A stretch of DNA of 32,965 nt from Parcubacteria group bacterium. Its GTDB lineage: Bacteria; Patescibacteriota; Minisyncoccia; UBA6257; UBA11618. Positions 19,164-21,326 of the stretch are shown piece after piece (positions within the stretch are counted from its first letter, which is position 1; each line of letters begins with the position of its first letter). The translations under genes and the position numbers were made by a program. The stretch spans positions 1 through 32,965 of the forward strand of contig CALQZH010000006.1 of the NCBI GenBank assembly GCA_943349395.1, written 5' to 3'. A model generated the notes under the pieces. That model was not told the origin of the DNA, did no database searches, and saw nothing but the letters and a program-made list of their open reading frames with translations.

Positions 19164-19877
19164 TTACTTTCGTAAACGCACGTCTTTCCGCACGCCGCCG
19201 GGCGAGAACACCCGGCAACCAGGTTCGAAAATCCTCTCATCACGAGCGGTAAACGCGTCAAGATGCCACCCCTCGTGGTTCCAGAGCTCGACGATACACT
19301 CATGACCGCCACCCAAACCATCCTCCACGCAAAAGAGATTCGAACGAGTCGTGAGAAGAGGAGAAGCAGCGTTATCCTGCGCATCATCTAAGAGATGCGC
19401 GATCATCAGGCAATCGGCATACGGCCGAGTGCCGAGCGCCTTGACGATCTCAACATTCGGCGAAGCGACCCCGAGGCAATACGGAAACAGCTCAACACTG
19501 TCTCGACACATGATCCGATGGTTCGGAAAAAGACGCCCGAAACGCTCGGAGATGTCGACGACATGGCACCGTGAGAACGAATCGTCTGAAAAACGACCCG
19601 AACCATAGATAGGAGGGATCTGGATCATCCCGACGTCCGAACAGGGTTTCATGAGCTGGGACGCCCCCGAAAGGGAGAACCGGTAATCGCACGCGAGCTG
19701 ATGCATAGCATCATCAAGCGCGAGCTTTCCATCGGGACTGCCGGACCAACGCAAAAAATCGAGGCCGATTCTGCGCGTCTTAAGCGCCCCGCGGAGCGCA
19801 AGCAACAACTCGAGCTGCAACGCCCCGAACTTGCCGAGAATCTCATCGAAATCGGTATCAGTCAGGTCACCAAGCAT
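19164..19877 (-). CDS. Hypothetical orphan protein (237 aa)
   Basis: ORF with its own promoter, SD-like AGAAGG and terminator; no family recognised. Confidence 0.7.
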   Translation of the reverse strand: MLGDLTDTDFDEILGKFGALQLELLLALRGALKTRRIGLDFLRWSGSPDGKLALDDAMHQLACDYRFSLSGASQLMKPCSDVGMIQIPPIYGSGRFSDDSFSRCHVVDISERFGRLFPNHRIMCRDSVELFPYCLGVASPNVEIVKALGTRPYADCLMIAHLLDDAQDNAASPLLTTRSNLFCVEDGLGGGHECIVELWNHEGWHLDAFTARDERIFEPGCRVFSPGGVRKDVRLRK

Positions 19878-19989: not shown

Positions 19990-20042
19990 TAAATAAGGCG
20001 TATCCGATCACAAGCCTATAGATCAGGCATTCCTGAAATTAT

Positions 20043-20076
20043 TAGCGTTTTAAGTGCGACCGCACCTAAAACGCTA
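20043..20076. repeat. Palindrome copy 1 (TTAGCGTTTTAAGTGC-GACC-GCACCTAAAACGCTA)
   Basis: 15-nt arms with one mismatch around a central GACC; located just past the stop codon of the Cas2/PaaX-like gene. Confidence 0.85.
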
Positions 20077-20086
20077 TAAATAAACC

Positions 20087-20614
20087 CTACCTCGTCATCG
20101 TTCCCCGCTTCTCGATAGTAAAAATATGCATAGTGTTCATAAGATTTTTCTCCCGAACAAAATCCATGAAGGCCCCGGGCAAGGGACCGCCGCCGATCCA
20201 CACGCTTTTCTGCAATTGCTCGTATCCCAGCATCATAAGCTCGGCTCGCAAATAATCGCGTAATTTTCTCCGACTTTCAGGAACATCGAAAATAACGATC
20301 GTATTCTTCCGTTCCTGGGAAAGCGTACGTGCGCGGAAATAAGAATCTGCCCTATCTTCCGCGCCGCGTGCCAGATCACGCCCCTTTTTCGTAAGGCGCC
20401 ATAGTCCCCATCCACCGCTCTCAACGAGCCCGTCCTTTTTCAGGCGAGACAACATGACACGAAAAGATCGCTCGTTCATAACCCTCTTTTCGCGATTCTT
20501 GAGACGCTTGACCAATAAGCTATGCAGGACGCGTGCGCCAGCGGCGCCATTCGCGACACTTAATAAAGTAAGGGCTATGGTTACGGCTATTTTTTCTTTT
20601 GTTACAAGCTCCAT
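20087..20614 (-). CDS. Winged-helix + Cas2-like (PaaX C-terminal / Cas2 fold) protein
   Basis: N-term wHTH-like MNERSFRVMLSRLKKDGLVESGGWGLWRLTKKGRDLA; C-term NTIVIFDVPESRRKLRDYLRAELMMLGYEQLQKSVWIGGGPLPGAFMDFVREKNLMNTMHIFTIE resembles the Cas2/PaaX ferredoxin-like domain, with the conserved Asp after the first strand. Confidence 0.8.
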   Translation of the reverse strand: MELVTKEKIAVTIALTLLSVANGAAGARVLHSLLVKRLKNREKRVMNERSFRVMLSRLKKDGLVESGGWGLWRLTKKGRDLARGAEDRADSYFRARTLSQERKNTIVIFDVPESRRKLRDYLRAELMMLGYEQLQKSVWIGGGPLPGAFMDFVREKNLMNTMHIFTIEKRGTMTR

Positions 20615-20632
20615 AAAAAGATATGTTCTTTA

Positions 20633-20674
20633 ATTATAGCATTTCAGGTGCGACCGCACCTGAAATGCTATAAT
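20633..20674. repeat. Palindrome copy 2 (ATTATAGCATTTCAGGTGCG-AC-CGCACCTGAAATGCTATAAT)
   Basis: 20-bp perfect inverted repeat with a 2-nt centre (central GACC); 18 nt upstream of the Cas2/PaaX-like start codon. Each arm ends in TGCTATAAT reading outward. Confidence 0.95.
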
Positions 20675-20759
20675 CAAGAAACTGAAAAATAACGCGTAGA
20701 TGATAACGCGCAAAGCCGTAGATAAGTTTCGGACGCAATGATATGCTGATACGACCCAA

Positions 20760-21326
20760 ATGAAAGACAAGATCGTTTTCGACGTCGAGACCAAGAATTC
20801 CTTCGAGGATGTGGGCGGCAGGGACAACCTGGAAAAGCTCGACGTCTCGGTCGTCTGCGTCTATTCCTATAACCACGACACCTACGCGAGCTATCGCGAG
20901 GGCGAGTGGGAAAAGCTCGCGCCCGTGCTCCAGAACGCCGGGCTCGTGATCGGCTTCGCCATCACCCGCTTCGACCTGCCAGTACTGAAAAAATATTTCC
21001 CCTTCAACGTGATGGCGCTCCCCCGCCTCGACCTTTTGGACGAGATCGAGCTCGCGTACGGCGCGCGCATATCGCTCGACGTGCTCGCGAAAACGAACCT
21101 CGGCACGCAGAAGACGAGCCACGGCCTCCAGGCCATCGAGTTCTACAAGCAGGGCGACTGGGACAGACTGATCGAATACTGCACGCACGACGTGCGCATC
21201 ACGAAGCAATTATACGACCTTATTAGGAAGCAAGGCTTCATCAACATACCGAAGCGGTACACGAACGAGCTCATCAAAGTACCGCTTAATTTGAAGGAAA
21301 TTGAAATACCCGCGACATTATTTTAA
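20760..21326 (+). CDS. DEDD-type 3'-5' exonuclease / RNase H-like (YprB-type) protein
   Basis: IVFDVETKNSFEDVGG (DxE), LVIGFAITRFDLPVLKKYF (second Asp), LIEYCTHDVRITKQLYDLI (YxxxD): exonuclease motifs I-III. Confidence 0.8.
   Translation: MKDKIVFDVETKNSFEDVGGRDNLEKLDVSVVCVYSYNHDTYASYREGEWEKLAPVLQNAGLVIGFAITRFDLPVLKKYFPFNVMALPRLDLLDEIELAYGARISLDVLAKTNLGTQKTSHGLQAIEFYKQGDWDRLIEYCTHDVRITKQLYDLIRKQGFINIPKRYTNELIKVPLNLKEIEIPATLF

Follow-up and report, generated by a model that had tools for sequence, protein, structure and literature searches.

Why would a small gene for a Cas2-like protein lie between two related palindromes in a stretch of DNA that holds no CRISPR array? The question is raised by 32,965 nucleotides from a Patescibacteria genome (G000; 622 kb in 22 contigs), a stretch that corresponds to contig C6 and is called the window throughout. 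Placement in the Patescibacteria (CPR) follows from loci of its order that are identical to those of named Parcubacteria (Jorgensenbacteria, Wolfebacteria and Brennerbacteria). The original prediction offered two answers: a palindrome-recognising mobile unit, laid out like RAYT/REP with a Cas2-fold protein in place of the usual one, or a regulator or nuclease acting on its own flanking sites. The layout of the family, the empty sites in relatives, the cognate solo palindromes and the fold of the protein favour the former and weaken the regulator form of the latter.

Results

A gene bracketed by two related palindromes

On re-reading the sequence, the coordinates and sequences of the ORF and of both palindromes proved correct (Table 1): the ATG is 18 nt from P2, the stop codon is 10 nt from P1, and the pair brackets solely this ORF. 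P2 is the 20-bp perfect inverted repeat that had been described; its 2-nt centre is non-palindromic (GT/AC), and the symmetry extends to 28-nt arms at 89%. P1 and P2 have the centre GTGCGACCGCAC in common and share, as predicted, an exact 12-mer core, which is found at just these two places in the window and in three palindromes of the whole genome. Two dyad pairs differ between them on both sides with pairing kept (G-C/A-T and T-A/C-G), and the third difference is the mismatch within P1. At the score threshold, ~490 kb of unshuffled sequence drawn from three genomes yielded 49 palindromes, many of them terminator-like, versus none after block shuffling, and palindromes of this strength are therefore not a product of chance. 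Of the two neighbouring genes, the left one encodes 237 aa without a Pfam match and has a sole homolog in six relatives, the 45% identical protein of congener G001.

Table 1. Features of the bracketed locus, in window coordinates
Feature	Position	Strand	Basis
wHTH + PaaX_M/Cas2-like protein, 175 aa	20087..20614	-	PF20803, TIGR01573, AF2 model, Foldseek
Codon of D110 (invariant Asp, FDxPE motif; aligned with catalytic-position Asp of Cas2)	20285..20287	-	Homolog alignments, HMM alignment
Palindrome P2, upstream of gene; 20 perfect pairs per arm, 2-nt centre	20633..20674		Sequence, shuffling control
Palindrome P1, downstream of gene; centre as in P2, one mismatch	20043..20076		Sequence
Possible extended -10 TGCTATAAT at P2 edge, on gene strand; by symmetry possibly also outward	20633..20641	-	Inference from sequence reading
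Segment missing at orthologous site of congener G001 (~7 nt there, BLAST); ends approximate	20001..20729		Genome comparison
Left neighbour gene (orphan), anchor for empty-site comparison	19164..19877	-	45% homolog beside exonuclease in G001
Right neighbour gene (RNase H/3'-5' exonuclease-like), anchor for empty-site comparison	20760..21326	+	PF01612/PF13482; 98% homolog in G001

A PaaX_M protein with a Cas2-like fold

A Pfam scan places residues 105-172 of the window protein in PF20803 PaaX_M (1.9e-14, 53.9 bits versus a gathering score of 24). Other models stay below their cut-offs: TIGR01573 cas2 just so (2.3e-4, 21.4 bits versus 24.5), the Cas2 model PF09827 (14 versus 23.8 bits), the N-terminal PaaX wHTH PF07848 (13.9 versus 24.8 bits) and the PaaX equivalog TIGR02277 (33.2 bits versus 264.55). 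Neither the Pfam scan nor the AlphaFold2 model (pLDDT 87.4) contains a PaaX C-terminal effector domain, the protein stopping after the Cas2-like domain; Pfam gives no match to Y1_Tnp, and the HxH motif is absent. Against the PDB, Foldseek ranks E. coli PaaX (8a39) first, followed by Cas2/VapD structures, and does the same for the model of one homolog; the E-values are modest (about 7e-3) and the matches consistent. In agreement with the predicted wHTH and Cas2-like architecture, the structure thus has a PaaX/Cas2-like fold, although the Cas2-like domain of PaaX is central and not, as had been stated, C-terminal. Judged by its sequence matches, the protein is a member of the PaaX_M superfamily and neither a PaaX equivalog nor a Cas2.

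In alignments of 40 and 33 homologs, the former too diverse for a pattern scan, the invariant residues are the Asp of the FDxPE motif, its Pro, one Arg and one Ser, joined in the second of them by a Trp. An HMM alignment with 6jhz, 8ia4 and 3exc pairs the FDxPE Asp with the one that Cas2 has in strand 1. The invariant Asp does not prove nuclease activity; Cas2 catalysis is itself often dispensable in CRISPR adaptation. Between two close copies dN/dS is ~0.12, indicating purifying selection, and the protein is therefore maintained. A viral origin was rejected, one IMG/VR scan having yielded no relative.

Like Cas2 and VapD, the protein has a ferredoxin-like domain whose first strand ends in an Asp (FDxP), and this Cas2-like domain is what could make the locus a remnant of a CRISPR adaptation module. 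We nevertheless rejected that origin, its probability being negligible. As originally noted, the window contains no CRISPR-like tandem array, and PADLOC detected no cas1 among the ten other window proteins scanned; homologs likewise have no cas1 or arrays around them and sit in single-gene contexts throughout. Unlike Cas2 and VapD, moreover, the protein is fused to a wHTH, and the cas2 models stay under their cut-offs.

The layout is a trait of the family

Searching related genomes for homologs and palindromes, as had been proposed, revealed the same layout across Patescibacteria, with different arms. Relatives and named genomes supplied 74 distinct homologs. Matched long palindromes flank 34 of them on either side, and in a further 17, which have a palindrome on one side, its partner is recognisable in decayed form (23-31 of 32 bases, versus shuffled maxima of 18-22); none of 113 control ORFs has a flanking pair under a stricter test. 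A phylum-wide sample of 29 new loci added six pairs and six one-sided cases. Orthologues without flanking palindromes, which would speak against the prediction, are thus not the rule, although 23 of the 74 homologs are without a detected pair. This comparison, made on sequence, establishes as a family trait that the gene is bracketed by palindromes of its own. The PaaX_M family occurs in about a third of the sampled Patescibacteria genomes, versus 1 of 14 control genomes, with up to nine gene copies per genome in the sample (G130). Several PaaX_M copies carry in-frame stops (G120:C1, G084:C1, G154:C2 and G098:C10), and decaying copies therefore exist.

The palindromes of different loci follow one rule at the centre and differ elsewhere. 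C at -3 and G at +3 from the dyad are present in all 33 loci tallied, and the centre conforms to CNNNNG, usually RCGATCGY, whatever the arms. Arm similarity, by comparison, is 0.94 within a locus, 0.52 between loci and 0.56 after shuffling, with similar arms retained in two close homolog pairs (91% and 62% protein identity). Even within G000, a 43% identical paralog (C15:14883-15380) is bracketed by two copies of a very different palindrome, ATATAAACAATTTTATACAATTGTATAAAATTGTTTATAT. A conserved central domain combined with a fast-evolving DNA-reading domain would be expected to produce such a pattern of constant centre and swappable arms. Co-evolution of protein and arms was considered and dropped: the correlation (Mantel r=0.14; for the wHTH part r=0.19, 0/2000) is carried by one close pair and is gone without it.

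Solo palindromes accompany the cognate gene

We refer to the palindrome of the window gene as type 1 and to that of the C15 paralog as type 2, and counted solo copies by a genome-wide pattern search and in sampled stretches, allowing the paralog type up to 3 mismatches. Type 2 has 13 copies in G000, two flanking the paralog and 11 solo; it has none in six relatives lacking the paralog (three congeners and three family members), and a reversed-pattern control also gave none. Type 1 has three copies in G000, one of them solo (C7:3879), and two in congener G003, precisely at its 62% homolog; the other relatives searched have none. A solo of the type found at another homolog locus (L026) was encountered in G024. 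Comparison thus establishes that palindrome type co-occurs with cognate gene type, at least as read from these genomes: in line with the original prediction, solos are dispersed only in genomes with the cognate gene, and palindromes scattered without relation to the gene family are not the rule.

The solos are intergenic and lie by unrelated genes (tsaD, uvrC, msrA, pyruvate kinase and others, named from their translations), often beginning no more than 30 nt past a stop codon. Similarity among the 13 type-2 copies stops at the palindrome edges, GAATAT...ATATTC, and nothing outside them is conserved, neither GTAG nor any other tetranucleotide. Solos as brackets of cargo genes were considered and discarded, as the genes between solos spaced by 1.4-1.7 kb are ordinary ones, pyruvate kinase and msrA among them. 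Two type-2 solos that lie 1.4 kb apart (G000:C2:48812 and 50239) have alike right-hand flanks, gtcgacgacgttcg, which suggests local duplication. Between the solo type-1 palindrome and tRNA-Val on G000:C7 lie three degenerate GGATCGAACCAGCGAC-like repeats (L005 1555-1665) resembling tRNA 3' ends, as if from repeated tRNA-targeted integration. A contig of another genome (G008:C8) carries two related loopless CNNNNG-centred palindromes of the CTTATTCCAATGTTCTTAAGAACATTGGAATAAG type (L159 1093-1126 and 19597-19634) with no family gene seen beside them; these are possibly orphaned solos.

The paired changes between P1 and P2 that the original prediction took as a sign of maintained symmetry are real, but covariation across the 13 type-2 copies is weak, with 22 of 500 shuffles reaching the observed value. 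Variable positions are often unpaired, two pairs being unpaired in 7 and 9 of the 13 copies, and conserved ACAA/TTGT elements recur about every 10 bp. Because covariation is weak, dyad symmetry seems to be kept for protein contacts and not for hairpin stability. The same data bear on the idea that the palindromes are RNA hairpins or terminators acted on by an RNase of the Cas2/VapD kind. Relatives among the Foldseek matches do include RNases, and the palindromes often lie directly 3' of genes; the symmetry, however, runs through the dyad without a loop, a hairpin loop would not need the invariant centre, and there is no T-tract. Together with the weak covariation and the unpaired positions, this makes RNA hairpins a very unlikely account.

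Empty sites in close relatives

In G001, the genes homologous to the left and right neighbours (45% and 98% identical) have their starts 275 bp apart, versus 883 bp in G000. The alignment with the window is continuous to 20000 and resumes at about 20727-20730, with about 7 nt between in G001; the missing segment reaches ~42 bp beyond P1 and ~55 bp beyond P2. G001 and G003 have an empty site where G000 carries the C15 paralog (107 and 52 bp versus 772 and 716 bp), the site of the G003 copy (G003:C1:19493-20118) is empty in G001 and G002, and three solos (C8:24281, C8:22602 and C7:5240) are missing from G001, which has roughly 73-103 bp fewer there. The search for empty sites thus succeeded in congeners at three gene loci and three solo sites, so that the same unit is found at different sites, with empty sites in close relatives, as expected of a mobile element. 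Further copies in G018 and G058 (89-90% nucleotide identity) share only ~0.79 kb, between unrelated flanks of 17 kb and 8 kb, and both contigs terminate 51 nt beyond the palindrome, at an identical base.

Comparison shows the gene and its palindromes to be an insertion relative to the sister species, a polarity that rests on congeners that lack the gene as well as the palindrome type and not on a rooted tree. No target-site duplication was seen at the compared sites, where divergence of the intergenic DNA leaves the ends of the inserts uncertain by tens of bases. Tens of bases beyond the palindromes also belong to the difference between the window and G001, between G018 and G058, and at the three solo sites.

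Three further observations concern insertion sites. A matching spot holds a type-2 solo in G000 (C1:79280) and the type-1 cassette in G003, and could be an insertion hot spot. The 51 bp outside the downstream palindrome (L021 1-51 and L022 2032-2082) are identical in two congeners with a synonymous difference of 0.29, and the contigs terminate at one common base. In G001, an insert of ~120 bp (L063, contig C19) that looks MITE-like, with ends ATCCCGTTAGAAACG and CGTTTCTAACGGGAT, separates the start of the exonuclease gene from the gene upstream of it; the insert adjoins ATGAAAGAC and is absent in the window.

Discussion

Altogether, we favour a model in which the block is a minimal palindrome-protein element, that is, a REP/RAYT-like and partly mobile cassette of ~0.7 kb with a non-HUH protein of the Cas2/PaaX fold, and we regard this model as probable. 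The genome comparisons show that gene and palindromes behave as a unit, with palindrome type following gene type and the solos being extra copies. A dimer, or a pair of dimers, would bind the ~40-46 bp palindrome as double-stranded DNA, so that the arms would be read by the winged helices and the dyad occupied by the Cas2-like dimer. Such binding is suggested by the loopless symmetry, the ~10-bp repetition of ACAA/TTGT, the 39-bp PaaX site and the often-unpaired variable positions. The Cas2-like domain would then cut at or near the conserved centre in an Asp-dependent manner, and these cuts would enable movement of the cassette and the seeding of solo palindromes in trans. That the protein is the catalyst is what we infer, and the dispersal would be analogous to the one proposed for TnpA-REP/RAYT on REPs, with unrelated chemistry. 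The low copy numbers, at most nine genes per genome and 13 palindromes in the sample, are a counterpoint to reading the block as an element.

A regulatory function provides the strongest rival. The protein would be a PaaX-like autorepressor acting through its flanking palindromes, the solos would be operators of its regulon, and gene and operators would come and go together through ordinary horizontal transfer or recombination. PaaX, a GntR-type repressor and an autorepressor, has the same order of a wHTH followed by a Cas2-like PaaX_M domain and is the top fold match; its E. coli site, TGATTC(N27)GAATCA, also has dyad symmetry and, at ~39 bp, is near the length of the palindromes (PMC9493321). 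The possible extended -10 that P2 would overlap, and the ~10-bp steps at which ACAA/TTGT recurs among the type-2 copies, as expected from a dimer on dsDNA, fit the same account. The window protein, in contrast to PaaX, has 175 aa and is without the effector domain, and its family's palindromes lie on both sides of the gene and are dispersed. A downstream copy would be superfluous for an autorepressor, the solos lie by unrelated housekeeping genes, many right after a stop codon, and they are 40-46 bp near-copies, inserted by comparison with a congener, while point mutation is the usual origin of operators. Thus, regulation accounts for binding, yet it leaves unexplained the downstream copy, the location of solos by unrelated genes and their insertion-like gain, and we consider it rather unlikely, if well ahead of the others. 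The CNAACGNNCGTTNG operator of the Thermus 'PaaX' was dropped as a parallel, the regulator there being the TetR-type PaaR (PMC9493321).

Alternatively, another transposase might have moved the palindromes as passive repeats, the Cas2/PaaX gene being a passenger or domesticated cargo between MITE-like copies. The solos do look MITE-like, and other short inverted-repeat elements exist in the genus (G001). Such a passive role is difficult to reconcile with the strict tracking of gene type by palindrome type, with the presence of the same gene family between different palindromes in dozens of genomes and with the lack of any other gene inside, and we consider it very unlikely.

The favoured palindrome-protein element is closest in organisation to REPtrons, defined as a tnpA-REP gene with its cognate palindromes (PMC8266576). 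As in REP/TnpA-REP (RAYT) systems, the gene is bracketed by cognate palindromes, solos are dispersed between genes (11 of type 2 and one of type 1 in G000), and gene and palindrome co-occur, each protein having its own palindrome. Unlike TnpA-REP, the window protein has neither the HUH motif nor the catalytic Tyr and is not an HUH/Y1 protein; the palindromes are loopless with an invariant centre, have no GTAG tag beside them and number tens at most, as against hundreds for REP. The position of the cassette also differs among relatives; evidence that tnpA-REP is mobile, by contrast, is reported to be lacking. With IS200/IS605 the element shares a small size and palindromic ends, but it has no HUH transposase, no guide sequences were identified, and its palindromes are loopless and of a dsDNA type.

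We tentatively go one step further, with somewhat less than even confidence: Patescibacteria could harbour a previously undescribed class of transposable element, in which a recombinase made of a Cas2-fold metal nuclease and a winged helix cuts at the dyad of long perfect palindromes and moves a cassette of ~0.7 kb together with non-autonomous solos. To our knowledge, no mobile-element or REP system based on a PaaX/Cas2-fold protein has been described, and a search of the open-access literature, with subscription journals and bioRxiv outside its scope, found no prior description of such a palindrome-protein system.

In these tiny, uncultured bacteria, the locus has the appearance of a novel type of minimal mobile element whose protein is CRISPR-Cas2-like. 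Because PaaX_M is present in about a third of the sampled Patescibacteria but in so few control genomes, a major repeat system of the Candidate Phyla Radiation could have gone unnoticed here, its genes being annotated as regulators of the PaaX kind or as stray Cas2. The gene-palindrome pairs, with their fixed centre and swappable arms, constitute dozens of natural specificity variants. If our model is correct, a mobile element would use the Cas2 fold as its catalytic module, which would bear on the origin of Cas2 and makes one part of that question testable, namely whether a Cas2-like fold acts as a site-specific DNA nuclease outside CRISPR.
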